NCBI GenBank assembly: GCA_037447655.1
Contig: JBBHKE010002200.1
Span: 79,393-143,392 of the forward strand
Direction: 5' to 3'
Source of the DNA: Zygnema cylindricum
Lineage: Eukaryota > Streptophyta > Zygnematophyceae > Zygnematales > Zygnemataceae
DNA length: 64,000 nt
Part shown: piece after piece, positions 7,271 to 40,083 of the stretch
Position numbering within the stretch: position 1 is the stretch's first letter
Layout: the number at the start of each line of letters is the position of its first letter
Notes under the pieces: generated by a model
Database searches by the model: none
What the model was told of the DNA's origin: nothing
What the model saw: only the letters and a program-made list of their open reading frames with translations
Translations under genes and position numbers: made by a program

Positions 7271-7330
7271 CTAGTAGGGTCTTAAAGGGAGAGGGGGGGG
7301 GAGAGGGAGAGAGAGAGCGAGCGAGAGAGA

Positions 7331-7902
7331 TGAAAGGATCGATAATAAACTCTGAGCTCACTTACAAGCACTTATAGCAGCAGAAGCATTCAGATTATAA
7401 AACATTAAATCAACATTGAAGAGACATTTCAAAAAAATTCTCACATTAATATAAAACTGAAATTACAATCTTTTTCTATCTCTTCTATTACTCCATATAA
7501 TCCTCCAATTCCTCATTGATTAATTAACACACAGTCATGGTGTCCCTTAAATACAATACCAGCCATGGCGTGACACGTGTGAGCGTGCGCCGCCAAGAAG
7601 CCTCTAGAAATCTGCCACCTGTCCACAGATTAAACTAAAATACTCTAAATTTCACTAAGGGCTGAAACATAGCAAAACGACAAGCTAAGACGAAAGTACT
7701 AGACAAAACTAGAAGTACTATCGTACTAAATTAGACGTACGGAAATTCTAGACGCGAAACAAATATATTTCGCGAAACATACATAGTACTTTCTCGAAAT
7801 CGTACGTCAAAGTACTTTCGATTCATTCTAGAAAGTACAGTTTTTCTTTCGCAAAATCGAACCGATTCCGCGTGCGTACGATTCTTTCAATGAATCGTAA
7901 CA
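7331..7902 (-). repeat. Copia-A 3' LTR
   Basis: A 572-bp copy of 11320-11891. It is the 3' LTR because the element reads on the minus strand. Sense-strand ends are TGTTACGATTCATTG and GATCCTTTCA. Confidence 0.92.
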
Positions 7903-7914
7903 TTCCCCCTCTTC
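7903..7914 (-). promoter_or_regulatory. Copia-A polypurine tract
   Basis: The minus strand reads GAAGAGGGGGAA immediately before the 3' LTR, the expected site for priming plus-strand DNA synthesis. Confidence 0.8.
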
Positions 7915-8051
7915 ATTGAAGAATCGTCAAATCCCACTAGAACCAAAATAAACTCCTAAACTCATGGTCGATTCTTTCAATATCCAACACACGAATTTCT
8001 CGCCTCCGTGTATGATTGAGGATCGCCGGCCAAATTCTCGCACATTGATTT

Positions 8052-8930
8052 CTATAAAAGGAATTCCGTCTCCTTCGCATCGGAGACGAAATAATGGGAA
8101 TTGGAATTCTCTCCACCAATTTTGTCATAAGAAAGTCGATTTGGTTTCTTTCCTCTATTCTCTCGAGTACTCCGTCTAAGAACCGGAACTTGTTCCACAA
8201 TCTTCTCCTCCTCGTCCACATTCGATTTTGAACTCGAGGATTTTTGACTTTCGGTCGACATTTTGGAATTACGGCTCACATTACTCCGAACATCAATGTC
8301 AATGTCTAATTTCTCCGAACTCGAATTAACATTTGATTTTCCCTTCTTGATGTTAACAATGGATTCCGGCTCCTCATTGGAGTCCGAGTTCTCAATTTCC
8401 GGGAAATTGGCAACATCGTCTACCTCATAAAAATCAAGATTCTTCTTCAATTCCGCCGATTTCTCAATAACCGATTTTAAGTCTTCATGAAAATTAACAT
8501 TTCGGGATTCTTCCACAATGCGACGAACAGGATCAAATACACGATAAAGATTTCCTTTCGTGCTATAGCCCACGAAAATTCCGGGCCAACTTCTCGCCGC
8601 AAATTTCCCTTTCCTTTTCACTTGATCCACATACACCGTAGCGCGACATCCCCAAATTCGGAGATGATGGAGGGCCGGTTTTCGCCCATAAAGTAATTCG
8701 AATGGTGTTTTGTCACCGGAAACCGAAGTAAGTCTCCGATTACAAATGTAATTGGCAGTGAGGATAGCATCTCCCCATAATGAGATACTTTGACCGGCCG
8801 AATGCACCATCACCCTCACCATTTCTTGTAAGGTCCTATTTTTCCTTTCGGCTACTCCATTCGATTCCGGAGAATAAGGTGAAGTGAATTGTTGGGTAAT
8901 ACCCCTCAAATGCGATAAATTCGCCTCCAT
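8052..8930 (-). pseudogene. Copia-A integrase C-terminal half, shifted frame
   Basis: Continues the integrase in a frame shifted by one base relative to the ORF ending at 8836. It carries the integrase signature around PYSPESNGVAERKNRTLQ, including the third catalytic acidic residue, then the variable linker with RRSTRENRGKK near the end. Comparison with other copia integrases suggests a few residues are also missing between DNGGEF and GITQQ, so the break looks like a small deletion plus frameshift. It ends at a TAG (8052-8054); after the TAG the same frame stays open for about 24 codons that resemble the relative at 37.58 kb, then stops where RT should begin. Confidence 0.85.
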
Positions 8931-10842
8931 TATCCGAACGAATGGCTTTCAACTTCCGTTCGCATTGTCTTTCGGCAAATGCATGCCACTCAATAAAAGT
9001 TTGAAGAGCATCCGATTTTCTCTTCAATAATTGAACCCACGAAAATCTTGAATAATCATCAACGATGACCATAATATATCGATTTCCTCCAAGGCTTTCC
9101 GGCTTAATTTGTCCACATAGATCAACGTGGACAAGCTCCAAAGGATGTTGAGCCCGAAATTTCACATCTTTCGTTGGATGTGATTTCCGAATTTGTCGTC
9201 CTTGACTACATCCATCACACCCATTTACTTTTTCGCCTGTAGCAAGATCTAATCCTCTCACACAAGCCGTTTTAATCATTTTCCTCAAATTTCCTTCGGA
9301 TGTACGACACATCCGATGGTGCCATAACGTTAAATCTCCCTTTAATTCCGAGATTTGGTTTAGAATGCCCGTGGAAGAAGCATTCTTCCTAGGTCGCCTC
9401 CATAAAAGTCGGCTATGCATCGAATTGGTTACTTCGCCTTCGCCGATTAATTTGCCGTCGGCGCGATATATACGAATTGCCGAATCACCTCTAGCGACTA
9501 CGCTTCCACCGGCACGCTGAATTTGAGGTACGCTTAATAGATTCACTGAACCATCCGGAATATATAGGACATTCAATAGACGCGCCTCCGAAATAGTTTC
9601 ATTTCCAAAACAGTCCCATGTAGGTAAATTCAATCGAACGGTACCCACTTTACCAACCGTAATCGTTTGTCCACTTGCTACCGTAATTAACTTTGGTACG
9701 GTAAGTGAGCGCATGTCGTCAAAAAGTGTAGCGTCCGTACACACGTGGTGAGACGCTCCCGTGTCAATAATCCACTCCTTTTCGCGCGCGTCACTTGGTT
9801 CACTTAATGAATCAATAGAGAGGTGAAGACAAGTGAACGTTTGTCCTCCTTCGTCTCCTTCAAAATTTCCCAAGTCAACAAAATTTCCATGACTTCCACC
9901 ATGACCGCCATAGCGTCCACGACCACGACCACTATCACGTCCGCGACCGCGACCACCAAAACCGCGACCGCCTCTTACTCCTCCGCTACTAAATTTAGAG
10001 TAGCATTGTTGGCTCATATGGCCTAGTTTCCCACAATTGAAGCATTCTCTCTCTTTATCCGGACACGAAGCCGAAAAATGACCAGGCCGGTTACAACGGA
10101 AACACAAGACGTTGCTACTATCATTTTGGACGGTTCGAGATCTTAGATTTCTACCATTATCAAACCATTTTCCACGACCTCTCGGACCTCTTCCTTTTCC
10201 ATCCCCTCTTCCACGGAAATAATGTAAGTCCGCGAATTCGGGAGCGGTCACATTCAAGGATCCCGTGTCCAAAGAGCCCTTTGAAGAGCTAACACGATTA
10301 CTCTCCGCCATCTTTAAATAATTTACAATAAACTCGTAGGTGTTATTTTCCCTCGCAAGTAAAATCTCCTTGAGATGGATCCATTTATCCGGTAATGCAT
10401 TCAAAAATCCGGTTACTTTGTCCTCCTCCGTGATCACTCTCCCATTGTTGAGAAGTTGCTCCACAATAATATTGAATCTCTTCACGGCATCGTCAAAAGA
10501 TTCATTGGATTTCATTTTAAATTGCATGAAATCGGAGAACATATATTGGCCCTTGTTTTGGATTCCCCTCTCAAATTGGGATTCCAACGCCTTCCAACAT
10601 CCGTGTGCGGTGCTATGCGTGAGGAAATGATCATGCACGGACACCGAACAAGTTTGCATTAGTCCGGTGATGGCCGCAAGATTCTTTCGCTTCCACAACC
10701 GACGAGCCTTCGCATCTCCAACCGGCATTTTCTCTTCTCCATTGACGACCTTCCAAAGGCCTCTCAAAATCAATTGAGCTCGAATATATTTCTTCCACGA
10801 AGGGTAATTCGATCCATTGAATACGACGGTCTTTCCGGGCAT
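8836..10842 (-). CDS. Copia-A gag, protease and N-terminal integrase
   Basis: A 668-codon open frame. Residues about 10-190 are the copia-type gag (YPSWKKYIRAQLILRGLW). Two CCHC zinc knuckles follow near residues 244 and 267 (CFRCNRPGHFSASC and CFNCGKLGHMSQQC), with a Gly-Arg-rich tail. The aspartic protease motif WIIDTGASHH is near residue 357. The integrase HHCC zinc region (WHHRMC...CDGCSQG) is followed by the catalytic core with VHVDLCG near 569 and RSDNGGEF near 631. The frame is then lost. Its ATG directly follows the UAG that ends the small upstream ORF in the same frame. Gag and protease appear intact, so the product could still form particles. Confidence 0.88.
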   Translation of the reverse strand: MPGKTVVFNGSNYPSWKKYIRAQLILRGLWKVVNGEEKMPVGDAKARRLWKRKNLAAITGLMQTCSVSVHDHFLTHSTAHGCWKALESQFERGIQNKGQYMFSDFMQFKMKSNESFDDAVKRFNIIVEQLLNNGRVITEEDKVTGFLNALPDKWIHLKEILLARENNTYEFIVNYLKMAESNRVSSSKGSLDTGSLNVTAPEFADLHYFRGRGDGKGRGPRGRGKWFDNGRNLRSRTVQNDSSNVLCFRCNRPGHFSASCPDKERECFNCGKLGHMSQQCYSKFSSGGVRGGRGFGGRGRGRDSGRGRGRYGGHGGSHGNFVDLGNFEGDEGGQTFTCLHLSIDSLSEPSDAREKEWIIDTGASHHVCTDATLFDDMRSLTVPKLITVASGQTITVGKVGTVRLNLPTWDCFGNETISEARLLNVLYIPDGSVNLLSVPQIQRAGGSVVARGDSAIRIYRADGKLIGEGEVTNSMHSRLLWRRPRKNASSTGILNQISELKGDLTLWHHRMCRTSEGNLRKMIKTACVRGLDLATGEKVNGCDGCSQGRQIRKSHPTKDVKFRAQHPLELVHVDLCGQIKPESLGGNRYIMVIVDDYSRFSWVQLLKRKSDALQTFIEWHAFAERQCERKLKAIRSDNGGEFIAFEGYYPTIHFTLFSGIEWSSRKEK

Positions 10843-11292
10843 CTAAAACATTTCCACTCCTCCTTGACTATCTTCTTCTAAATCGGAATCGTCATCAAGC
10901 TTAAATTTCCCCCTCTTATCTTTCACTTTCTTTGCCTCCTCATCACTATCAACGGAATCTCCTCCATCGGGATCGGGATCCGGCTCACCGTGAGCTAATT
11001 CATTAAACCTCCTATCCACGGCCGAGAATTTCTCATCAATCCAACGCATGAAATTCTCCAAATACTCTCGCATTTGATTGTCGGACATCGAGCCACCGAC
11101 ACCTCTATTTTGATCAAGTGAATCCGTGGGGAATGATGACTCAAATGCGGCTCCGGTAAAATTGAACTCTTTCTCTTCTTTAGGAGGATCCTCGGGAGTC
11201 GGCAATTTTTCCCAAAAATTAGAAACGGGGATAGCTGAAGAGGAGGGATTGAAAGGGGACTTCTTTTTGCTCCTTCTCCCCATACACTGCAA
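10843..11292 (-). CDS. Copia-A small upstream acidic ORF, same frame as gag
   Basis: A 149-codon frame that starts just after the primer site (first ATG 11290-11292) and ends at TAG 10843-10845. That TAG is followed without a gap by the gag ATG in the same frame. The N-terminus is basic (GRRSKKK), the middle has a likely helical segment (MREYLENFMRWIDEKFSAVD), and the C-terminus is very acidic (DPDPDGGDSVDSDEEA, DDDSDLEED). No known domain was recognised. It may be the N-terminal part of gag separated by a readthrough or reinitiation signal, or a separate protein. Confidence 0.6.
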   Translation of the reverse strand: MQCMGRRSKKKSPFNPSSSAIPVSNFWEKLPTPEDPPKEEKEFNFTGAAFESSFPTDSLDQNRGVGGSMSDNQMREYLENFMRWIDEKFSAVDRRFNELAHGEPDPDPDGGDSVDSDEEAKKVKDKRGKFKLDDDSDLEEDSQGGVEMF

Positions 11293-11305
11293 TGGAGCTC
11301 TACCC

Positions 11306-11317
11306 GCTTTGATACCA
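11306..11317 (-). promoter_or_regulatory. Copia-A primer-binding site (tRNA-iMet 3'-end type)
   Basis: The minus strand reads TGGTATCAAAGC two bases inside the 5' LTR. The standard plant copia primer site, complementary to the 3' end of initiator tRNA-Met, is TGGTATCAGAGC, one base different. Confidence 0.85.
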
Positions 11318-11319
11318 AA

Positions 11320-11891
11320 TGAAAGGATCGATAATAAACTCTGAGCTCACTTACAAGCACTTATAGCAGCAGAAGCATTCAGATTATAAAACATTAAATC
11401 AACATTGAAGAGACATTTCAAAAAAATTCTCACATTAATATAAAACTGAAATTACAATCTTTTTCTATCTCTTCTATTACTCCATATAATCCTCCAATTC
11501 CTCATTGATTGATTAACACACAGTCATGGTGTCCCTTAAATACAATACCAGCCATGGCGTGACACGTGTGAGCGTGCGCCGCCAAGAAGCCTCTAGAAAT
11601 CTGCCACCTGTCCACATATTAAACTAAAATACTCTAAATTTCACTAAGGGCTGAAACATAGCAAAACGACAAGCTAAGACGAAAGTACTAGACAAAACTA
11701 GAAGTACTATCGTACTAAATTAGACGTACGAAAATTCTAGATGCGAAACAAATATATTTCGCGAAACATACATAGTACTTTCTCGAAATCGTACGTCAAA
11801 GTACTTTCGATTCATTCTAGAAAGTACAGTTTTTCTTTCGCGAAATCGAACCGATTCCGCGTGCGTACGATTCTTTCAATGAATCGTAACA
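11320..11891 (-). repeat. Copia-A 5' LTR
   Basis: A 572-bp LTR, five substitutions from 7331-7902. The right flank AGAGA repeats the left flank of the other LTR. Confidence 0.92.
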
Positions 11892-17863: not shown

Positions 17864-18329
17864 TATTGGAATTCGTCATACTATTGAATCACTATAATTT
17901 AGGTAGTTATTTCATGATGACTAAAGTCCTAGAACACTAAGTCTTAAGTGCTCCACTTTAATTAGTGTTCATGTACTTGCTTGTACATAATGTATTAAGC
18001 GTAGAAAGATTCTCACTGAAAGTTTAGGATCTTTCTAACTAGTTCTACCTCCACTTTTAGATCTACCTAGATTAGTCGTAGTTCCACTTATTGGTTGTAC
18101 CTATATTAGTTGTACCTCCACTTTTGTGTAGTGCGCTTTACACACTTGAGTTCATCTATAAAACTCAAGTGTCTCACTATGATTTTTCACTTACAAATTT
18201 CAATTTACTGAACTTTAGTTTACGACAGTCCTTTTTGTCCTTACTGTCTTTTTCCCTTTTTATGTACTTTGTACACTTTTCTGTCCTTTTGCTCTTTATC
18301 AATCTTTTGTTATGGGCGCTAATTTATTA
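17864..18329 (+). repeat. Copia-H LTR 1
   Basis: A 466-bp LTR. It contains three variants of TACCTCCACTT in the likely promoter part, a TATA box in a palindrome (18142-18172), and a 22-codon hydrophobic upstream ORF (18262-18330) that overlaps the gag start in another frame. Its last six codons are the gag N-terminus. Confidence 0.88.
18142..18172 (+). promoter_or_regulatory. Copia-H TATA box inside an 11-bp-arm palindrome
   Basis: Arms ACACTTGAGTT and AACTCAAGTGT flank CATCTATAA, so TATAAAA (18157-18163) sits in the loop and right shoulder of a potential stem-loop. The same palindrome is present in LTR 2 near 23159 and LTR 3 near 28248. Confidence 0.75.
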
Positions 18330-21300
18330 GGTTATGGGCCCACAGCTTCGGCCGTGTCAAACTCAGTACAGAAATTTAAAGGACAGGACTTTTACAACTG
18401 GAAATTTCTAATCCAGCATCTATTCAGTTTTGAGAAATTATGGGGCCACGTCATAGGAGACGTCATCATTCCAATATTACCAGATGAGGATGACGATGAT
18501 TTTGCGGCTACCCAGACTGCAATCATTGCGTGGAGAGAAAAGGACTCCGTCGCACTGTCTCGTCTCATACTGTCGCTAGATGGAACAATCGCAAATCTTG
18601 TACGAAGCGCCACAACCGCAAATGAAGCGTGGCGACTTTTATGCGCCGCGTATGAAACCGACACGTGGCCGCATCGTTTGGCTCTTCGACGAGAATTTAT
18701 TCTTCTTGAAAAGGATAAGTCTGAAGACATGTTGTCATTTATTCAAAAAGTACAATCATACGCTGGTCGTTTGAAATGTATTAATTATCCTGTGACGCAT
18801 GAAGATCTTATTAGCGTCATCTTGGCAGGATTGCCGTCCAGTTTTGAATCCTTTGTTGGTACGGTTGACAAAAATCCTGCGAATATTACCTTACCTGATC
18901 TAACCAATCAACTTGTCTATGAAGAAAGCAGACAAAAATTAAAAAAACATGTGACATCACTTGACGCCACAGCGCTAACTACCCTTGTTTCAAAAAAATC
19001 TTCTACAGGTGCTGCAGGATCTTCCACCTTTTGCAGATACTGCAAAGAGAAAGATCATTTGATCGACGCGTGTCCAGCTCTCGCTCGAAAACGTGAACGT
19101 GCGACAGTTGGTGGTGGCGGCGGTCAAAATAAATACAACGCTTCAAATCCTAGAACGTCGCCCAATCCGCCTGTCGCGTACAATCCCGTTGGACACGCAA
19201 CTGCAGCATTCATGACCCCTTCGTACGGTCCTTACGGACCTCCTCCCCCTTGGTACAACATGTCGCCTCATTTTCAACTTGCGCCAACTGTACCTCCTCC
19301 ACTCCTTCAGTCTGACGTAACAAATCCGGATGTAGCGCCTATCAACCACACCAATTTTGTACCTGCTCCCATTCCTCCAATGGACTATGGGTACGCATTC
19401 AATGCTTCAGGTAATAATCATGATTGGTTAATAGATTCCGGTGCCTCGCACCACATGTCATGCTCCAAATCCATCATGACAAATATAGTTATGCTCTCTT
19501 CTCCTTTACGCATTTTACTTGGAAATAACTCTGTCCTAACGTCAAATTTTGTTGGACAGGTGGCCATAAACCCGAGTAGTTCCGCGCCACTCATTTTGGA
19601 GAACGTTTTCTTTGTTCCCCAACTCAAAAAAAATCTTTTCTCTGTAGGAACTGCACTAAAAAACGGTAGTTTCGGAATCATTTCTGAAACCGACGTCGAG
19701 TTTTTTTCGTCAAATCACGTTTCTCTTGGAAAGGGGATTAAATGTGGTAATCTCTACGTTCTAAAATCCTTTAGAGACTTAGCACATGCAAATGTAGCAA
19801 ACTCTTCTCCTTCCTCTTCTTGTTTTCACAAATGGCATTTACGGTATGGCCATCTAAATAGGCAAAGTTTAGCGTCTCTTAGTAAAGGCCTTTTTTTAGG
19901 CTTAGATTCATTTGATGCAAAACAACTTGATTTTTGCCATGGATGTATAATTGGCAAAATGCCTCGATTACCTTTTCCAACAAGCTCTTCTGAATCAAAT
20001 TCTCCTCTTGATCTAATTTCTAGTGATGTATGTGGACCTATGAGGGTACCAAGTTTGAGTGGATTTGTGTATTTCATTACCTTTATTGATGATTACTCAC
20101 GATTCACTCATGTATATCTTATGAAAAATAAGTCTGAGGCCTTTACTCATTTCAAACATTTTAAGTCCCTTGTCGAAAATCAATTCTCCTCTCAAATAAA
20201 AATGCTAAGAAGTGATAATGGGGGGGAATATATGTCGCATGAATTCACGGATTTTTTAGCATCATGTGGCATAATTCATGAATTGACTGCTCCACATACA
20301 CCTCAACAAAATGGGGATGCCGAAAGACTTAATCGCACCCTTGCCGATATGGCTCGGTCCATGATGCATTTTGCCTCATTACCTCAATCTTTTTGGGCCG
20401 AGGCCCTACTAACTGCTTGTTATGTTCGAAATAGATCACCCACGTCGGCTCTTAAAAACAAAACTCCATTTGAGGCATGGCATAAAAAGAAACCGAATGT
20501 TTCCCATTTTCGCATTTTTGGAAGTGAGGCTTATTACAAAAACCTTACAAATAACGATGGAAAATGGGGTGCAAAGGCCATAAAAGGTATTTTTGTTGGT
20601 TACGCCCCCCACTCCAAAGCGTACCGGATATACTGTCTTAAAACTCGTCGTATCATCATCTCCCGTGACGTCATTTTTAATGAGGACCCTCTTATTCGAC
20701 ACCTCGTACCAAATCTTCCTGTCACACCTTTAACCGTTGATTTCCCTACGGACTCATTATCCGTTGATCCTCTAACCCCTCTTAACAATTCAACGGCCAC
20801 GATGACGGAACCGGAAAACTTTGTTTTTACAGATTTTGGCAGATTTGAAAAATCTTTGACCGCGGAACATGCCGCGAAATCCGCGCCCATTTCACAGACG
20901 CAAATCATTGCGACTGACAATACAGGTGTCGCTTCCCACGATTCACAGCTCACGACGACAAATCTTGACGATATAAATGTCGACGCGCCAACAACCCATG
21001 TGAGAAGTACGCCTCAGGACGAATATTTACGCGCGCCAAACGACATGCAGCTGTCGTCATTAATACTAGCGGACAACGTACGGACTACGACAAATTCTAT
21101 TCAACCAATTTTGGCGAATCCACTTACGCAATCCTCCACGACAAATTTTTTGAACGATTCGCCTATTCAGCAAACTGTACGACGTAGTTCTCGACTTGTA
21201 CGTCCTACTTGGAAGGTGACTCAAAATCTTGCTCACGCCAATCTTGCTGACGTCAAAGATTCACCTCTCACATTAAAATCTGCTCTAAAGCGTCCAGATG

Positions 21301-22856
21301 CAGACAAGTGGCACTTGGCGGCAAATGAAGAATATCAAGCCCTAATGATAAATCAGACTTGGACGCTTTGCGAACTGCCACCTAACCGGCGTGCCATTGG
21401 TTCAAAATGGGTTTTTAAAGTTAAAACATTTGCAGATGGATCTGTTGAACGCTATAAGGCGCGCCTAGTGGCGAAAGGTTATTCGCAGATGGAAGGAATT
21501 GATTACAACGAGACTTTCGCCCCTGTTGCAAAATTTGAATCTATTCGTACAATTTTGTCTTTGGCGGCAATCCACGATTGGGAGCTTCAGCAACTAGACG
21601 TAAAAACTGCTTTTTTACACGGGAATCTTGAAGAAGATATTTACATGGAACAGGCTCCAGGATACGTTGTAGCTGGACAAGAATCTTTGGTCTGTCGATT
21701 GAATAAATCAATTTATGGTCTTAAGCAGGCGCCACGTGTGTGGCACAAAACACTTGTCTCTGCTTTATTAAAAGATGGATTCAAAGAAATTAGCGCAGAT
21801 CCTGGTATTTACATTAAAGGTACAGGTAATAGTTTAGTAATCATTATTATCTACGTTGATGATCTAATACTTGCTGGTCCTAGTAAAACGGAAATTAACA
21901 AAGTAAAACTCATGCTAGCATCTCATTGGCCGATGACAGATTTGGGTGACCTTGATTACTGTTTAGGCATTAGCATTACAAGAAATAGATCTAAACGTTT
22001 ATTACAAATGAGTCAAGAGCATTATATTGTCGATATTTTAGAGACTTTTGGAATGTCCGATTGTAATCCTATTTCTACACCTCTAGATCCAAATACCACA
22101 CTTAGAAAAGAAGTATCCGATGGGGATGCCCAAGGAGAAATAGGGTCTCTTTACCGGTCTATTGTTGGAAAGTTGATGTATGCCATGTTGGGGTCGCGTC
22201 CGGACATTTGCATTGCTGTGTGTATCTTATCCCAATTCTCTCATTGTGCGAGTTCTACTCACCTTGATGCGGCGAAACGTGTCCTCAGATATCTCCAAGG
22301 CACTAAACATCTTCGCCTCACCTTCTCTCTTCCTCCTTCCTCCTCTCCACCTTGTTCTCCCTCTCCTTCTCTCTCCCTTCTCGACTCCTCTCTTGTTGGT
22401 TTTTGCGATGCGGACTGGGGAAATCAAACTGATGAACGCCGTTCTATTTCTGGAGTGTGCTTTTCCCTTGGTGGTGGACTTGTCTCATGGTCTTCTCGGA
22501 AACAACAAACTGTTGCTCTCTCATCTACTGAAGCTGAATATATGGCGGGCACCTCTGCCACAAAAACCGCCATTTGGCTTCGTCGTCTTCTCACGGACCT
22601 TTCTTTTCATCAATCTTCTCCCACTCCTATCTTTTGTGATTCTCAAGGAGCTCTCGCTCTCATGAAAAATCCCATTCATCATACTCGAACGAAGCATATC
22701 GATATACAATACCACTTTACACGTGAAAAAATTATGGATGGAACGGTCTCTTTCTCTCATTGTTCTACCTCTAACCAACTTGCCGATTTTCTTACCAAAC
22801 CTCTTCCTCGCCCTTCATTCGACAAACATATTTTTTCTTCTGGCCTACGTGACTAA
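18312..22856 (+). CDS. Copia-H gag-pol polyprotein, intact
   Basis: A single 1514-codon frame from ATG 18312 to TAA 22854. Gag (FYNWKFLIQHLFSFEKLWGH) is followed by one CCHC zinc knuckle near residue 240 (CRYCKEKDHLIDAC). The aspartic protease motif WLIDSGASHHM is near 376. The integrase has an HHCC-type zinc region (WHLRYGHLN...FCHGCIIG) and the three acidic catalytic positions in SSDVCG, RSDNGGEY and GDAERLNRT (about 570, 634, 670). RT spans about 1025-1270 with YVDDLIL near 1181, and RNase H about 1360-1500 with DADWGN and SSTEAEY. The order PR-IN-RT-RH is Ty1/copia. All motifs seen are complete, so the element may be autonomous. The first six codons lie in the LTR and the next five overlap the primer-binding site. 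Confidence 0.96.
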   Translation: MGANLLGYGPTASAVSNSVQKFKGQDFYNWKFLIQHLFSFEKLWGHVIGDVIIPILPDEDDDDFAATQTAIIAWREKDSVALSRLILSLDGTIANLVRSATTANEAWRLLCAAYETDTWPHRLALRREFILLEKDKSEDMLSFIQKVQSYAGRLKCINYPVTHEDLISVILAGLPSSFESFVGTVDKNPANITLPDLTNQLVYEESRQKLKKHVTSLDATALTTLVSKKSSTGAAGSSTFCRYCKEKDHLIDACPALARKRERATVGGGGGQNKYNASNPRTSPNPPVAYNPVGHATAAFMTPSYGPYGPPPPWYNMSPHFQLAPTVPPPLLQSDVTNPDVAPINHTNFVPAPIPPMDYGYAFNASGNNHDWLIDSGASHHMSCSKSIMTNIVMLSSPLRILLGNNSVLTSNFVGQVAINPSSSAPLILENVFFVPQLKKNLFSVGTALKNGSFGIISETDVEFFSSNHVSLGKGIKCGNLYVLKSFRDLAHANVANSSPSSSCFHKWHLRYGHLNRQSLASLSKGLFLGLDSFDAKQLDFCHGCIIGKMPRLPFPTSSSESNSPLDLISSDVCGPMRVPSLSGFVYFITFIDDYSRFTHVYLMKNKSEAFTHFKHFKSLVENQFSSQIKMLRSDNGGEYMSHEFTDFLASCGIIHELTAPHTPQQNGDAERLNRTLADMARSMMHFASLPQSFWAEALLTACYVRNRSPTSALKNKTPFEAWHKKKPNVSHFRIFGSEAYYKNLTNNDGKWGAKAIKGIFVGYAPHSKAYRIYCLKTRRIIISRDVIFNEDPLIRHLVPNLPVTPLTVDFPTDSLSVDPLTPLNNSTATMTEPENFVFTDFGRFEKSLTAEHAAKSAPISQTQIIATDNTGVASHDSQLTTTNLDDINVDAPTTHVRSTPQDEYLRAPNDMQLSSLILADNVRTTTNSIQPILANPLTQSSTTNFLNDSPIQQTVRRSSRLVRPTWKVTQNLAHANLADVKDSPLTLKSALKRPDADKWHLAANEEYQALMINQTWTLCELPPNRRAIGSKWVFKVKTFADGSVERYKARLVAKGYSQMEGIDYNETFAPVAKFESIRTILSLAAIHDWELQQLDVKTAFLHGNLEEDIYMEQAPGYVVAGQESLVCRLNKSIYGLKQAPRVWHKTLVSALLKDGFKEISADPGIYIKGTGNSLVIIIIYVDDLILAGPSKTEINKVKLMLASHWPMTDLGDLDYCLGISITRNRSKRLLQMSQEHYIVDILETFGMSDCNPISTPLDPNTTLRKEVSDGDAQGEIGSLYRSIVGKLMYAMLGSRPDICIAVCILSQFSHCASSTHLDAAKRVLRYLQGTKHLRLTFSLPPSSSPPCSPSPSLSLLDSSLVGFCDADWGNQTDERRSISGVCFSLGGGLVSWSSRKQQTVALSSTEAEYMAGTSATKTAIWLRRLLTDLSFHQSSPTPIFCDSQGALALMKNPIHHTRTKHIDIQYHFTREKIMDGTVSFSHCSTSNQLADFLTKPLPRPSFDKHIFSSGLRD
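18330..18343 (+). promoter_or_regulatory. Copia-H primer-binding site, half-tRNA-iMet type, inside gag
   Basis: GGTTATGGGCCCAC follows the LTR end directly. It is the reverse complement of the conserved initiator tRNA-Met anticodon arm (GUGGGCCCAUAACC), the site used by Drosophila copia after cleavage of the tRNA in its anticodon loop. It also encodes gag residues G-Y-G-P. The same 14 bases occur at 23365-23378. Confidence 0.85.
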
Positions 22857-22870
22857 AACTCCGTGCTTCA

Positions 22871-22882
22871 ATCGAGGGGGAG
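22871..22882 (+). promoter_or_regulatory. Copia-H polypurine tract, unit 1
   Basis: ATCGAGGGGGAG lies immediately before LTR 2. The equivalent site before LTR 3 (27934-27945) is ATCGAGGGGAAG. Confidence 0.75.
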
Positions 22883-23364
22883 TATTGGAATTCGTCATAC
22901 TATTGAATCACTATAATTTAGGTAGTTATTTCATGATGACTAAGTCCTAGAACACTAAGTCTTAAGTGCTCCACTTTAATTAGTGTTCATGTACTTGCTT
23001 GTACATAATGTGTTAAGCGTAGAAAGATACTCACTAAAGATTAGGATCTTTCTAACTAGTTCTACCTCCACTTCTAGATCTACCTAGATTAGTCATAGTT
23101 CCACTAATTGGATGTACCTATATTAGTTGTACCTCCACTTTTGTGTAGTGCGCTTTACACACTTGAGTTCATCTATAAAACTCAAGTGTCTCACTATGTT
23201 TATTCATTCACAAAATTCAATTTACTGAACTTAAGTTCAATTTACTGAACTTTAGTTCACGACAGTCTTTTTGTCCTTACTGTCTTTTTCCTTTTTATGT
23301 ACTTTGTACACTTTTCTGTCCTTTTGCTCTTTATCAATCTTTTGTTATGGCCGCTAATTTATTA
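22883..23364 (+). repeat. Copia-H LTR 2 (shared middle LTR)
   Basis: A 482-bp LTR; compared with LTR 1 it has a short internal duplication near 23215-23250 (CAATTTACTGAACTT occurs twice) and well over ten substitutions. Confidence 0.9.
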
Positions 23365-26300
23365 GGTTATGGGCCCACAGCTTCGGCCGTGTCAAACTCA
23401 GTACAGAAATTTAAAGGACAGGACTTTTACAACTGGAAATTTCTAATCCAGCATCTATTCAGTTTTGAGAAATTATGGGGCCACGCCATAGGAGACGTCA
23501 TCATTCCAATATTACCTGATGAGGGTGACGATGATTTTGCGGCTACCCAGACTGCAATCATTGCGTGGAGAGAAAAGGACTCCGTCGCACTGTCTCGTCT
23601 CATACTGTCGCTAGATGGAACAATCGCAAATCTTGTACGAAGCGCCACAACCGCAAATGAAGCGTGGCGACTTTTATGCGCCGCGTATGAAACCGACACG
23701 TGGCCGCATCGTTTGGCTCTTCGACGAGAATTTATTCTTCTTGAAAATGATAAGTCTGAAGACATGTTGTCATTTATTCAAAAAGTACAATCATACGATG
23801 GTCTTTTGAAATGTATTAATTATCCTGTGACGCATGAAGATCTTATTAGCGTCATCTTGGCAAGATTGCCGTCCAGTTTTGAATCCTTTGTGGTACGGTT
23901 GACAAAAATCTTGCGAATATTACCTTACCTGATCTAACCAATAAACTTGTCTATGAAGAAAGCAGACAAAAATTAAAAAATCCATGTGACATCACCTGAC
24001 GTCACAGCGGTAACTACCCTTGTTTCAAAAAAATCTTTTACACGTGTTGCAGGATCTTCCATTGTTTGCAGATACTGCAAAGAGAAAGATCATTTGATCG
24101 ACGCGTGTCCAGCTCTCGCTCAAAAACGTGAACGTGCGACAGCTGGTGGTGGCGGCGGTCAAAATAAATACAACGTTTCAAATCCAAGAACGCCGCACAA
24201 TCCGCCTGTCGCGTACAATTTTGTTCGACACGCAACTGCAGCATTCATGACCCCTTCGTACGGTCCTTACGGACCTCCTCCCCCTTGGTACAACATGTCG
24301 CCTCATTTTCAGCTTGCGCTAATTGTACCTCCTCCACTCCTTCAGTCTGACGTAACAAATCCGGATGTAGCGCCTATTAACCACACCAATTCTGTACCTG
24401 CTCCCATTCCTCCAATGGACTATTGGTACGCTTTCAATACTTCAGGTAATAATCATGATTGGTTAATAGATTCCAGTGCCTCGCACTACATGTCATGCTC
24501 CGAATCCATCGTGACAAATCTAGTTATGCTCTCTTCTCCTTTACGCATTTTACTTGGAAATAACTCTATCCTAATTTTGTAAAATTTTGTTGGACAGGTG
24601 GCCATAAACACGAGTAGTTCCGCGCCACTCATTTTGGAGAACGTTTACTATGTTCCCCAACTCAAGAAAAATCTTTTTTCTGTGGGTACTGCACTCAAAA
24701 ATGGTAGTTTCGAAGTCATTTCCGAAACGGACGTCGATTTTTTTTCGTCAAATCACATTTCTCGTGGAAAGGAGATTAAATGTGGTAATCTCTACGTTTT
24801 AAAATCGTTTAAAGACTTAGCACATGCAAATGTAGCAAAGTCTTCTCCTTCCTCTTGTTGTTTTCACAAATGGCATTTACGGTATGGCCATCTAAATAGG
24901 CAAAGTTTAGCGTCTCTTAGTAAAGGCCTAGTTTTAGGCTTAGATTCATTTGATGCAAAACATCTTGATTTTTGTCATGGATGTATAATTGACAAAATGC
25001 CTCGATTACCTTTTCCAACAAGCTCTTTTGAATCAAATTCGCGTCTTGATCTAATTTTTAGTGGTGTATGTGGACATATGAGGGTACCAAGTTTGAGTGG
25101 ATTTGTGTATTTCGTTACTTTTATTGATGATTGTTCACGATTCACTCATATATATCTTATGAAAAATAAGTCTGAGGCCTTTACTCATTTCAAAAATTTG
25201 AAGTCCCTTGTTGAAAAATCAATTCTCCTCTCGGATAAAAATGCTAAGAAGTGATAATGGGGGGGAATATATGTCGCATGAATTCTCGGAGTTTTTAGCA
25301 TCATGTGGCATAATTCTTGAATTGATTGCCCCACAAACACCTCAACAAAATGGGGATGTCGAAAGACTTAATCACACCATTGCCGATATGGCTCGGGCCA
25401 TGATGCATTTTGCCTCCTTACCTCAATCCCTTTGGGCCGAGCCCCTACTAACTGCTTGTTATGTTCGAAATAGATCACCCACGTCGGCCCTTAAAAACCA
25501 AACTCCGTTTGAGGCATGGCATAAAAAGAAACTGAATGTTTCCCACTTTCACATTTTTGGGAGTGAGGCCTATTACAAAAACCTTATAAATATCGATGGA
25601 AAATGGGGTGCAAATGCCATAAAAGGTATTTTTATTGGTTACGCCCTCCACTCCAAAGCGTACCAGATATATTGTCTTAAAACTCGGCGTATCATCATCT
25701 CCCGTGACGTTATTTTTAATGAGGACCCTCTTATTCGCCACCTCGTACCAAATCTTCCTATCATACCTCTAACTGTTGATTTCTTTACGCACTCATCATC
25801 CGATAATCCTCAAACTCCTAACAATTCAACAGCCACGATGACGGAACCGGAAAACCTTGTTCAGCCACGATGACGGAACCGGAAAACCTTGTTTTTACAT
25901 ATTTTGGCAGATTTGAAAAATCCTTGACCGCGGAACCAGCCGCAAAATCCGCGCCCATTTCACAGACGCAAATCATTGCAACTGACAATACAGGTGTCGC
26001 TTACCACGATTTACAGTTCACAGCGACAAATCTTGACGAAATAAATGTCGACGCGCCAACAATCCATGTGAGAAGTACGCCTCAGACGAATATGTACGCG
26101 CGCCAAACGACATGCAACTGTCGTCATTAATACTACCGGACAATGTACGGACTATGAAAAATTCTGTTCAACCTTTGGCGAATCCACTTGCGCAATCCTC
26201 CACGACAAATTTTTTGAACGATTCGCCTATTCAGCAAACTGTACGGCGTAGTACTCGACTTGTACGTCCTACTTGGAAGGTGACTCAAAATCTTGCTCAC

Positions 26301-27919
26301 GCCAATCTTGCTAACGTCAAAGATTCACCACTCACATTAAAATTTGCTCTAAAGCGTCCAGATGCAGACAAGTGGCACTTGGCTGCAAATGAAGAATATC
26401 AAGCCCTAATGACAAATCAGACTTGGACGCTTTGCGAAATGCCACCTAACCGGCGTGGCATTGGTTCAAAATGGGTTTTTAAAGTTAAAACATTTGCAGA
26501 TGGATCTGTTGAACGCTATAAGGCGCGCCTAGTGGCAAAAAGTTATTCGTAGATGGAAGGAATTGATTACAACGAGACATTCGCCCCTGTTGCGAAATTT
26601 GAATCTATTCGTACAATTTTGTCTTTGGTGGCAATCCGCGATTGGGAGCTTCTACAACTAGACGTAAAAACTGCTTTTTTACACGGGAATCTTGAAGAAG
26701 ATATTTACATGGAACAGGCTCCAGGATACGTTGTAGCTGGACAAGAATCTTTGGTGTGTCGATTGAATAAATCAATTTATGGTCTTAAGCAGGCGCCATG
26801 TGTGTGGCACAAAACACTTGTCTCTGCTTTATTAAAAGATGGATTCAAAGAAATTAGCGCAGATCCTGGTATTTACATTAAAGGTACAGGTGACAGTTTA
26901 GTAATCATTATTATTTACGTTGATGATTTAATACTTGCTGGTCCTAGTAAAACGGAAATTAACAAAGTCAAACTCATGTTGCATCTCATTGGCCGATGAC
27001 AGATTTGGGTGACCTTGATTACTGTTTAGGCATTAGCATTACAAGAAATAGATCTAAACGTTTATTACAAATGAGTCAAGAGCATTATATTGTCGATCTT
27101 TTATAGACTTTTGGAATGTCCGATTGTAATCCTATCTCTACACCTCTTGATCCAAATACTACACATAGAAAAGAAGTATCCGATGGGGATGCCCAAGGAG
27201 AAATAGGGTCTCTTTACCGGTCTATTGTTGGAAAGTTGATGTATGCCATGTTGGGGTCGCGTCTGGACATTTGCATTGCTGTGTGTATCTTATCCCAATT
27301 CTCTCATTGTGCGAGTTCTACTCACCTTGATGCGGCGAAACGTGTCCTCAGATATCTCCAAGGCACTAAACATCTTCGCCTCACCTTCTCTCTTCCTCCT
27401 TCCTCCTCTCCACCTTCTTCTCCCTCTCCTTCTCTCTCCCTTCTCGACTCCTCTCTTGTTGGTTTTTGCGATGCGGACTGGGGAAATCAAACTGATGAAC
27501 GCCGTTCTATTTCTGGGGTGTGCTTCTCCCTTGGTGGTGGACTTGTCTCATGGTCTTCCCGGAAACAACAAACTGTTGCTCTCTCATCTACTGAGGCTGA
27601 ATATATGGCGGGCACCTTTGCCACAAAAACCGCCATTTGGCTTCGTCGTCTTCTCACGGACCTTCCTTTTCATCAATCTTCTCCCACTCCTATCTTTTGT
27701 GATTCTCAAGGAGCTCTCGCTCTCATGAAAAATCCCATTCACCATACTCGAACGAAGCATATCGATATACAATACCACTTTACACGTGAAAAAATTATGG
27801 ATGGAACGGTCTTTTTCTCTCATTGTTCTACCTCTAACCAACTTGCCGATTTTCTTACCAAACCTTTTCCTCGCCTTTCATTCGACAAACATATTTTCTC
27901 TTTTGGCCTACGTGACTAA
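23347..27919 (+). pseudogene. Copia-H gag-pol, second unit, decayed
   Basis: Collinear with the intact 18312-22856 frame but broken at least seven times. Frame losses are near 23920, 23985, 24580, 25230, 25860, 26110 and 26990. In-frame TAG codons are at 26550-26552 (CAG in unit 1) and near 27103 (GAG in unit 1). The frameshift near 25860 is caused by a 32-bp tandem duplication (25830-25861 and 25862-25893). The protease active site reads DSSAS instead of DSGAS. RT still shows YVDDLIL and RNase H still shows DADWGN. Gag and the RNase H end are least damaged. Confidence 0.95.
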
Positions 27920-27945
27920 AACTCGGTGCTTCAATCGAGGGGAAG

Positions 27946-28433
27946 TATTGGAATTCGTCATTCCATCATACTATTGAATCACTATATTTTAGGTAGTTAT
28001 TTCATGATGACTAAGTCCTAGAACACTAAGTCTTAAGTGCTCCACTTTAATTAGTGTTCATGTACTTGCTTGTACATAATGTGTTAAGCGTAGAAAGATT
28101 CTCACTAAAGTTTAGGATCTTTCTAACTAGTTCTACCTCCACTTCTAGATCTACCTCCACTTCTAGATCTACCTAGATTAGTCGTAGTTCCACTTATTGG
28201 ATGTACCTATATTAGTTGTACCTCCACTTTTGTGTAGTGCGCTTTACACACTTGAGTTCATCTATAAAACTCAAGTGTCTTACTATGTTTATTCATTCAC
28301 AAAATTCAATTTACTGAACTTAAGTTCACGACAGTCTTTTTGTCCTTACTGTCTTTTTCCTTTTTATGTACTTTGTACACTTTTCTGTCCTTTTGCTCCT
28401 TTTAAATCTTTTGTTATGGCCGTTAATTTATTA
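27946..28433 (+). repeat. Copia-H LTR 3
   Basis: A 488-bp LTR with two small tandem duplications (CCACTTCTAGATCTACCT doubled near 28137; an 8-bp repeat near 27957). Homology to the other units stops at TTTATTA, which helps fix the LTR 3' boundary and shows that the LTR carries the gag ATG. Confidence 0.88.
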
Positions 28434-37316: not shown

Positions 37317-39103
37317 TTGAAACGATTTGCGGATTTGGTATGTCGCGTATCTTTGCGTGACATCGTTGACGTAACGAGGAAATCTTCGTCTTCTAAAACA
37401 AGAGAACCGAATATTATTGAGGAGGAATCGGCGAGGGAAGAAAAAGAATTTGAGCGGAGGAGTATGCGAGAAAATAGGGGTAAGAAACGGGCTCATCTTT
37501 CTTTTGATGGTAAGGGGAATGTAGAGAATTCATATTATTTTATTTCGGCAGAGAGGGAGGATGATTTTTTTTTATAGCAATCATTATGTGAAAACAAGCC
37601 GGGCGATCTGCAATCGTATGTGGAAGCACGAAAATCATGCGATTGGGAGAAGCATTGGAAACCGGCATGGGAGCGAGAACTTCAATCTATTATCGACAAC
37701 CGGACATTTGAGGAGGTAAGCCTACCGGAGGGTAAAAAGGCTATAGGTGCGAAGTGGATTTTTAAAACCAAAACTAGTGCATCGCGGGAAGTAGTAAAAC
37801 ATAATGCTCGGCTAGTTTGCAATGGTTTTCAACAAAGGGAGGGGATAGATTATACGAAGACTTACGCACCCGTAGTTAAATTTGATTCATTGAGGATGAT
37901 TATTGTTATTGCCGTTGCCGGCAAGAAGCACATTCACCAAATGGACGTAGAGACGGCGTTCTTAAATGGTGATTTAGAGGAGGAGGTTTATATGAAAGTT
38001 CTGGAAGGAGTAGTGTCGAAGGAGGGGAAGGTATGGCGGCTGCGAAAGTCCTAGTACAGACTAAAACAGGTACCGCGGACTTGGTATTTGAGATTACACA
38101 AAGTCCTAACCGAATTTGGATTTCTACGAACAATTTCAGACTCTGGAGTTTACGTAAAAGGTGAGGGGGAGGATCAAATCATTTTTTTTCTGTCTACGTG
38201 GATGATTTTTTGATGATATGTGACAAGTTGACGCGAATTGCGGAATTGAAGGAGTACATACGTCTTTACTTTAAATTCACAGATTTGGGGGACGTACGGT
38301 ATATTATTGGAGTGGAAGTTTTGAGGTACGATAATGGAGATATTAAATTGTCGCAAACGCAATATTGTAAAGAAGTACTAACAAAATTTGCTATGTTGGA
38401 TTCTAAGCCGGTTTTGACACCACTAGATTCCAAACTTCAATATCGCAAATTTAGGGAGGAAGAAACTGTCCACGTGCCCCATCGTGAGGCCGTTGGAAGT
38501 TTAATGTATTTAAGTGTGGCCATGCGACCAGATATTTCGGCTGCGGTTTCTGTCATGAGCCGATTTTGTCAGGCTCCTAAAAAGATTCATTGGGAGGCCG
38601 TGAAGAGGATATTTCGTTACCTTGCAGGTATGGTCGAGGTTGGTTTATTATTCCGATCTGGACGGACATCTTTGGAGTGCGTGGGATATTGTGACGCAGA
38701 TTGGGGTGGAGATTTTGATACAGCAAAGTCAACGTCTGGATATGCTTTTGTTTTTGGTGGCGCGGCAATTTCTTAGAGTTCGCGACTCCAACCAACTGTC
38801 GCATTAAGTTCAACCGAAGCGGAGTATATGGTTGCGTGTCATACGTCTAAGGCGTCGATTTGGATTAAAGAGTTACTTGGAGAATTGGGGATTACGATTG
38901 GATGCATGAAAATATTTCAGACAGTATGAGTTCGATGGCGTTGGTGAAAAATACAGTCTTTCACAAAAGGACAAAACATATTAGGATTCAGTGGCACTTC
39001 GTACGCGATTTGGTCACCGCAAAGGAAGTTGAATTTTTGTACGTTTCGACGTTGGAGGAAGCCGCGGATATGTTGACGAAAGCCGCGAGTCATGATGTAC
39101 TTT
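37317..39103 (+). pseudogene. Copia-A relative: RT and RNase H, broken
   Basis: The frame 37317-37577 ends with TAG (37575-37577), then RT continues in the same frame (from 37578; ATG-initiated frame from 37620). RT motifs include KWIFKTKT, YAPVVKFDSLR and QMDVETAFLNGDLEEEVYM. A TAG at about 38052 replaces the Leu codon of the usual SLYGLKQ motif. A frameshift near 38190 precedes YVDDFLM, after which RNase H follows (CDADWGGDFD, SSTEAEYM). A TAG near 38774 replaces an expected Trp, and another frame change lies near 38930. The later breaks look like random decay; the first TAG does not, because Copia-A has it too. Confidence 0.88.
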
Positions 39104-39158
39104 GAGGGGAAGACCTAAATTAGGGTTGGTGTAATGATTACAACTTTGAGAGGGGGAT

Positions 39159-39661
39159 TGTTAGATTCAATGTTGTAATCGGCTGTCGCGGTCTGTCGCG
39201 CGGCCAGATAATTTGTCGTTTTGTTTTAGAGGGTGGTCTTGTTGGTTTGGCATCATTATGTCTTTTAGATCCTTTCGTAGATTCCTGGTCTCGCGTAGAT
39301 TCGGTTTTGCGACGACCAGGTTTAATTGTCGTTTGGTTTGTACGGGTTTGTTTGGGTTGTACGTTTAGGTGTACTTTTGCGTTGTACTTTAGTTTTATGA
39401 TGTTTCGCGTGATGACGTATTTTGATTGGTAGGCGCTTCGTGCGCACTTTATGTTTCGTTTGGTTTTTTATAGTTTGATAGTGTGACGCTTCACTTGCAG
39501 TACTATATACTGCAGCTTAGAGGGAGGGAAACTTAACTTTTTTTTGGGAGAAAATGTTCGTGAAATATATTGGCTTTCGTGGACAGTTTTCTCTCGTCTG
39601 AATGTTTTATTTTTGCTTCCGCTGTAATGTTGCACTCTCCATTTTGTGTGAGATCCTATCA
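39159..39661 (+). repeat. 3' LTR of the Copia-A relative
   Basis: Starts TGTTAGATTCAATG right after the polypurine tract and probably ends GATCCTATCA, matching the LTR ends of Copia-A (GATCCTTTCA) and of the solo LTR at 30277 (AATCCTTACA). No second copy is in the window, so the 3' end is inferred. Confidence 0.65.
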
Positions 39662-40083
39662 AAAATGAATCTCGAAAGGGACAAAGAGTTGAAAAATAAT
39701 AGTCGCAGGCGACCCGGTGCTTTGCCCTTTGGTTGCCAAGGGACTTTTGTTTTCGTACAGTACCATGTATGTTTTTAATGAAACATAATATATAATATTT
39801 TTAATTTTAATATATGTTAATACATTAGATTTTTTATATGTAATTTCCATTGTTTACATAATTATTTATTGTTTCGATTTAGTCCGTCGCTTCATGTCTT
39901 CGTGTCCGCATCGACGGCGCCGTATGCGGTTTCCAAAGAATACGTTAAATTTCGTTTGTGCCGTCGCTTTCGTCGTTGCTGTCGCAACCGCCTGTTCTCG
40001 TCGCCGTCGCTGCGATATCGCTTCACTTACTTGGTACGGTGATCTAAAAAAACTTTAGCCGTACGAAAAATCTTTTTCACCAC
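39662..40083. other. Intergenic stretch, nothing recognised
   Basis: A/T-rich first half and CpG-rich second half (GTCGCTTTCGTCGTTGCTGT and similar). No supported gene or repeat. Confidence 0.4.

Follow-up and report, generated by a model that had tools for sequence, protein, structure and literature searches.

An in-frame stop codon between integrase and reverse transcriptase in Ty1/copia families of Zygnema cylindricum, very probably passed by translational readthrough

A stop codon at the integrase/reverse transcriptase boundary

Two copia copies in the window, the 64,000-nucleotide stretch of Zygnema cylindricum DNA analyzed here, raise the question of whether a stop codon that divides integrase (IN) from reverse transcriptase (RT) is damage or a working part of the element. 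The original prediction, made from these two copies, was that a TAG at the same place in both, followed by RT in the same frame, marks a site of readthrough. The TAG was confirmed at the matching place, at 37575 to 37577 on the plus strand in copy 2, where it lies between the integrase linker and RT, and at 8052 to 8054 (read from 8054 to 8052) on the minus strand in copy 1. The flanking peptides correspond as described, with FFL, stop, and QSLCENKPGDLQSYVEAR in copy 2 and FLL, stop, and KSMCENLAGDPQSYTEAR in copy 1, and the contexts are those read earlier, namely, TAG CAA TCA (a CAR-YYA context) in copy 2 and TAG AAA TCA in copy 1. The claimed synonymous divergence past the stop was also borne out, with a pS of 0.88 versus a pN of 0.20 across the first 20 codons past the TAG. 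The two copies are members of two different copia families, here called A (copy 2) and B (copy 1). Both are poor examples, since copy 1 has no RT and copy 2 is a 5'-truncated pseudogene, and for this reason the question could not be decided from that pair alone.

Copy 1 occupies positions 7330 to 11891 on the minus strand, with long terminal repeats (LTRs) of 573 bp each (7330 to 7902 and 11319 to 11891) that are 99.1% identical. An open reading frame of 668 amino acids (8836 to 10842) covers gag, zinc knuckles, the protease region, and integrase and is ended by a frameshift inside integrase; the C-terminal integrase, an SH3-like domain, and the linker follow in a 298-amino-acid frame (8055 to 8948) whose final FLL adjoins the boundary TAG. 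A large deletion took out the remainder of RT, leaving only about 20 codons past the TAG. The primer-binding site after the 5' LTR, TGGTATCAAAGC (11306 to 11317), we take to be plant type and tRNA-Met-like, and a polypurine tract, AATGAAGAGGGGGAA (7903 to 7917), adjoins the 3' LTR. A second in-frame TAG lies in gag, at 10843 to 10845 on the minus strand, between frames of 167 and 668 amino acids. This gag stop and the integrase frameshift, which is near 8.9 kb, are present despite the 99.1% identity of the LTRs.

Copy 2 (37374 to 39662, plus strand) is 90.4% identical to the corresponding part of L014, an open family-A copy described below. Upstream of the TAG, the element has kept no more than about 67 codons. 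The N-terminal part of RT (37578 to 38054; RVT_2, E value of 3.7e-37) continues the frame that runs up to the TAG and is broken further on, there being further stops and a frameshift downstream; a later part of RT (38165 to 38776; RVT_2, E value of 2.3e-13) is in a different frame. The 3' LTR lies at about 39156 to 39662.

The boundary codon across genomic copies

The genome from which the window derives (352.8 Mb in 2,689 contigs) was searched with three queries. With copy 2, the best 40 of 464 candidates were scored, giving 40 family-A copies, copy 2 among them; with copy 1, the best 40 of 156 candidates were scored, and all 39 other family-B copies were fetched. The third query was P0169, a relative from another source in which integrase and RT are fused; the best 30 of 39,520 candidates were scored, and 401 bp was fetched at the boundary of each. 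These 30 comprised 3 copies of family B (all counted before), 6 of C, 3 of D, 8 of E, 9 of F, and 1 of G, where families A to G are a grouping by boundary sequence made in this analysis and G is a single copy.

Among the 107 distinct copies of the seven families, the boundary codon was TAG in 93, TGA in 8, TAA in 3, and AAG in 3. An in-frame stop at this fixed place is thus nearly universal in the copies examined (104 of 107), and the earlier view that it is not there by chance is upheld. Family A had 35 TAG, 2 TAA, and 3 AAG codons (a stop in 37 of 40 copies), and the 39 family-B copies beside copy 1 had 38 TAG codons and 1 TAA codon. Family E had TGA in all eight copies (L095 to L102) and never a sense codon. 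Sense codons were rare at the site, as had been expected (3 of 107 copies, all AAG and all in family A), and CAG was found in none of the 107. The 30 matches to P0169 span most of the element from gag to RNase H (RH), and each holds at least one stop. The stop stood exactly at the boundary, after FLL or FFL, in all 30; 14 of the 30 had exactly one in-frame stop, and in those 14 the boundary stop is therefore the only one. No fused copy was found among these best 30 of the 39,520 candidates. One family-E element (G000:C1657:57859-62340, with boundary L100) is found on the same contig as the window, at positions upstream of it, and the TGA of this element is its sole in-frame stop.

Two of the three AAG copies, L013 and L017, were fetched at length, and in neither are the frames open both before and after the boundary; for L047, the boundary region alone was fetched. 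The three sit on separate branches of a tree that carries no support values. It is odd that the same change to AAG should occur three times and neither CAG nor TGG at all; the three copies may have arisen by gene conversion or may form a small group with a sense codon. Sorted by motif, 20 of the 39 family-B copies run from the boundary into RT, 15 are joined by a deletion, and 4 are broken otherwise. In the 15 joined copies (L049 to L052, L059, L065 to L067, L069, L071, L078, L080, L081, L083, and L086), the deletion has taken out what lies between the beginning of RT and the tail of the RNase H part, in several cases in frame. These copies may represent an RT-less subfamily that has been multiplying while keeping the boundary stop.

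Family-A copies open on both sides of the stop

Twenty family-A copies were fetched at lengths of 7.8 to 8.4 kb. Three of them (L014, L015, and L023) have an uninterrupted frame of 1,124, 1,124, and 1,130 codons, respectively, up to the TAG and another, of 518 codons and containing RT, past it. LTR identity is 98.8%, 99.6%, and 98.0%, in the same order, and the flanking sequences show 5-bp target duplications. Inspection of the ends by eye found LTRs of the form TG...CA, a primer-binding site, and a polypurine tract, as in Ty1/copia elements. In L014, the frame before the stop holds Retrotran_gag_2, zf-CCHC, Pol_BBD, gag_pre-integrs, rve, and SH3 domains, and the frame after the stop, which ends just upstream of the 3' LTR, holds RVT_2 at residues 41 to 282. 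The order is the copia type, gag-PR-IN-RT-RH, and the elements were assigned to the Ty1/copia superfamily. The protease (PR) and RNase H of L014 had no Pfam match of their own; both are probably present, judging from a D(T/S)GA motif, presumably that of the protease, and from genomic copies that resemble P0169 along most of its length. The first in-frame ATG past the stop is codon 107 in all three open copies, and in L014 it falls within RVT_2, so RT cannot simply begin afresh there.

Selection on both sides of the stop

We compared 19 family-A copies with L014 codon by codon, leaving the frames unrepaired. Variants common to at least three copies, which must have been passed on by copying, numbered 86 nonsynonymous, 196 synonymous, and 2 stop variants before the boundary (omega of about 0.15) and 21, 80, and 0 after it (omega of about 0.10), with the caveat that the compared copies are related and the counts are not independent events. 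The purifying selection that the original prediction called for after the TAG is thus present: RT lies in the same frame past the stop and has been under purifying selection. Variants found in a single copy behave much like neutral decay, with 493 nonsynonymous, 217 synonymous, and 33 stop variants before the boundary (omega of about 0.80) and 278, 105, and 28 after it (omega of about 0.99); for variants in two copies, omega was 0.25 before and 0.43 after the stop. Between families, seven representatives compared over the 55 codons past the stop gave pS values of 0.57 to 0.93 (at least 0.7 in 15 of the 21 pairs) and pN values of 0.13 to 0.39, and eight family-B copies compared with L014 over 85 codons gave a pS of 0.77 to 0.85 and a pN of 0.11 to 0.12. 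With pS so high and pN so low, the stop and its context have been retained while most of the synonymous sites changed.

Readthrough context and RNA signals

Type I readthrough signals have the form UAG-CAR-YYA. The stop of SIRE1, a Sirevirus of soybean, lies in this context, and CAATTA after UAG is the form of the signal in tobacco mosaic virus (UAG-CAA-UUA). CAR-YYA followed 85 of the 93 TAG codons and occurred in all six TAG families, which extends to the families at large what had been noticed in copy 2. In family A, CAATCA or CAATTA followed 30 of the 35 TAGs; in family B, CAATTA followed the boundary stop in 37 of the 39 copies beside copy 1, so the AAATCA of copy 1 is an exception within its family. 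Families C and D have TAG CAATTA, and families F and G have TAG CAATCA. The context is therefore found in six of the seven families and is missing from family E and from copy 1. Family E has TGA AAGGCA (seven copies) or TGA GAGGCA (one copy), and no known readthrough signal was recognized around its UGA in L095 to L102; a CAATTA does occur 4 nt past its stop, out of register. The CAR of the context is there because a conserved glutamine is encoded at that place. The YYA is kept across families although the second residue alternates between serine and leucine, and the chance of YYA in all six families, given the residues and the codon use of L014, is about 0.0003 if the families are taken as independent, which they are not fully.

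Measured against dinucleotide shuffles, six single folds of downstream sequence had z scores between +0.45 and -1.5; with mononucleotide shuffling, which is the less strict control, the representatives of families A, B, C, and G gave -2.3 to -3.2 and those of families D, E, and F gave -0.1 to -0.4. The folds of the representatives differ from one another, and a search for RNA structure common to the families found none, the consensus of the seven-family alignment reaching only -1.68 kcal/mol; hairpins within single families are possible. Synonymous change beside the stop showed no clear dip. CAR-YYA contexts are reported to work without RNA structure in the accessible text of PMC2194720. A -1 frameshift of the HIV type was rejected as the means of reaching RT, which is in the same frame as the residues upstream. 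The slippery heptamer TTTTTTA precedes the TAG in copy 2 and is absent from the other 39 family-A copies; it also occurs in L088.

Relatives from other sources

Three proteins from JGI contigs (P0001, P0121, and P0122) end at the place of the window TAG or within about 4 residues of it. P0001 ends in AEDFLL. P0121 and P0122, which were found under a length limit that excluded fused proteins, are 1,072 and 1,022 amino acids long and run from gag to integrase without RVT_2. All three are known as proteins alone, and the end of a contig is a possible cause of their termini. A protein search that admitted fused proteins returned one close relative that is fused, P0169, a protein of 1,574 amino acids with cysteine at the site and a gapless alignment around it. 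No relatives were found in the bacterial/archaeal and viral collections.

In a tree of the integrase region with 17 rows, the window pair, P0001, P0169, P0121, and P0122 form one clade (SH-aLRT of 100), in which the window pair stands against P0001, P0169, and the pair P0121 and P0122; the inner forks are resolved only in part. The nearest outgroup proteins, P0123 and P0186 of Closterium, are single polyproteins to judge from the Pfam domains listed for them. An ancestral stop that was lost in P0169 is the shorter account, and separate gains of the stop are a possible alternative. We did not adopt P0169 as proof that the stop is dispensable but retain it as a counterexample.

Probable readthrough and its alternatives

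We conclude that the boundary stop is very probably a site of programmed readthrough, with Gag-PR-IN as the predicted main product and Gag-PR-IN-RT-RH as the minor one. Most ribosomes would terminate at the boundary and release Gag-PR-IN, and a few would insert an amino acid at the stop, aided in six families by UAG-CAR-YYA, to yield the longer protein. RT would then be made only through readthrough, would be in short supply beside Gag, protease, and integrase, and would enter the particle within the long polyprotein. It also seems probable, with a little less assurance, that a dosage-control stop has here left the gag/pol border for that between integrase and RT, so that RT-RNase H alone would be scarce, protease and integrase would be made 1:1 with Gag, and termination itself would be under selection. 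In favor of termination having been kept, we count the occurrence of one UGA family beside six UAG-CAR-YYA families with no sense-codon family and the relatives from other sources that end at the same place. Against readthrough, we count the position of the fused P0169 inside the clade, the three AAG copies of family A, and the absence of CAR-YYA from family E.

The chief rival is alternative splicing, on account of the pyrimidine run ending in AG at the stop: TAG would end a 3' splice site, spliced RNA would join an upstream exon to CAA TYA and so give RT, and unspliced RNA would end at the stop. Representatives of families A to D, F, and G have a pyrimidine-rich run directly before TAG|CAA, family E has an AG 3 nt past its TGA, and the AG is retained in the AAG variants. 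The host has introns, judging from tubulin matches that come in pieces, and BARE, copia, and Ogre use splicing according to the accessible text of PMC3735527 and PMC6317226. We nevertheless consider splicing unlikely, because the pyrimidines encode the conserved FLL, the terminal peptides of P0121 and P0122 (ERDLA and TVTEDS) encode no such run, the AG is lost in the three TAA copies, and the conservation of YYA across serine/leucine changes would be left unexplained. It is less likely again that the copies with a stop are nonautonomous and are copied by the RT of a fused helper elsewhere, the stop being inherited and unused. The 99.1% LTR identity of copy 1 without RT, the joining of RT start to RNase H end in 15 of 39 family-B copies, and the existence of the AAG copies and of P0169 would fit such a helper; the low omega of shared variants in the RT behind the stop and the lack of fused copies among the best 30 of 39,520 candidates speak against it, and one helper would be needed for each of seven families.

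RT might also have a start of its own, supplied by an internal promoter or by ribosomes that reinitiate. Family B does offer an in-frame ATG as the third codon past the stop, and a promoter at the gag-pol junction of Tca2 has been studied (in the accessible text of PMC2194720), but in the three open family-A copies the earliest in-frame ATG past the stop is codon 107, which is inside RT in L014, and the residues directly after the stop are conserved between families; we regard a separate start as very improbable, slightly more so than a helper. The last two alternatives are already contradicted by the data, and we give each hardly any weight. One is that the host code assigns an amino acid to UAG, in keeping with UAG being the commonest codon at the site and with stops in 2 of 22 tubulin matches (one with a single TAG, the other with two TGAs and one TAG). 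Some copies, however, have TAA or TGA at this place, and the other 20 tubulin matches have no stop; L014, which was picked for its open frames, encodes glutamine always by CAA (43 codons) or CAG (5 codons) and has no TAG in 1,642 codons. The other is that the stops are chance events in decaying copies, spread by common descent or produced by C-to-T decay of CAG. Many copies are indeed pseudogenes with several stops, and no single-copy changes have higher rates than C-to-T and G-to-A. Such stops would not stand alone in otherwise open frames with purifying selection behind them, nor hold a fixed place across seven families that are mostly near synonymous saturation, and no copy has CAG at the site. 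Readthrough remains the explanation that we prefer.

Comparison with known systems

The claim that a stop between integrase and RT is unusual for copia agrees with the accessible text of the literature, in which the reported stops of retroelements lie at gag/pol or pol/env, and we found no description of an integrase/RT stop in the open-access literature as far as its accessible text goes. SIRE1 is likewise a Ty1/copia element for which stop codon suppression has been reported for a downstream part (PMC2194720 and PMC2829016, in their accessible text), but its stop lies between pol and an envelope-like gene, with RT upstream, whereas the present stop is inside pol and precedes RT; a pol/env stop of the Sirevirus type was therefore rejected. 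Tca2/pCal of Candida albicans and VdLTRE5 of Verticillium dahliae are Ty1/copia elements with an in-frame stop that needs to be bypassed. As far as the accessible accounts go, theirs is a UGA between gag and pol, with protease and integrase also past the stop, and VdLTRE5 and (in the same source) Tca2 are without CARYYA. A gag/pol stop of the Tca2 type does not describe the present elements, in which gag to integrase form one frame of 1,124 to 1,130 codons in three copies, with the domains assigned in L014. In Tj1, Tosmo, and Tcry1 of fission yeasts and in murine leukemia virus, an in-frame stop also divides a polyprotein and readthrough serves as dosage control; in the accessible accounts, these stops are at gag/pol, the elements are not copia, and the context is UGA-CT or UAG with a pseudoknot. 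The tobamovirus signal is of the UAG-CAR-YYA type seen in families A to D, F, and G (PMC2194720, accessible text), but there it lies in the replicase of an RNA virus, an unrelated gene. Other plant Ty1/copia elements (Neumann et al. 2019, PMC6317226) share the domain order and LTR structure, and most plant groups have a tRNA-Met primer-binding site; they differ in having one open reading frame, or two, with GAG or GAG-PROT making up the first, and the accessible text of that survey does not mention an integrase/RT split for plant Ty1/copia lineages.

Readthrough in retroelements is thus already known; what appears new is the place between integrase and RT, together with one family using UGA where six use UAG-CAR-YYA. 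In retroelements, stops of this sort usually part the structural protein from the enzymes. A division inside pol would imply that scarcity is required of RT alone, with integrase and protease tolerated in Gag-like amounts. The six UAG families, one UGA family, and one fused relative are natural replicates in which stop choice and context can be set against polyprotein ratios, and they would represent a cellular use of the tobamovirus signal. They also carry a warning for annotation, as elements whose boundary stop is taken as damage may be mistaken for pseudogenes or for elements without RT.

Other features of the window

An open frame at 5698 to 6474 on the plus strand, for which there was no Pfam match, encodes a long repeat rich in proline and serine followed by a cysteine-containing segment. 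A different copia family is present at 17864 to 28433 on the plus strand as two tandem copies, 94 to 95% identical, with three LTR-like repeats; the second copy is broken, and the first (18219 to 22856) has one open reading frame of 1,545 codons in which RT is fused.
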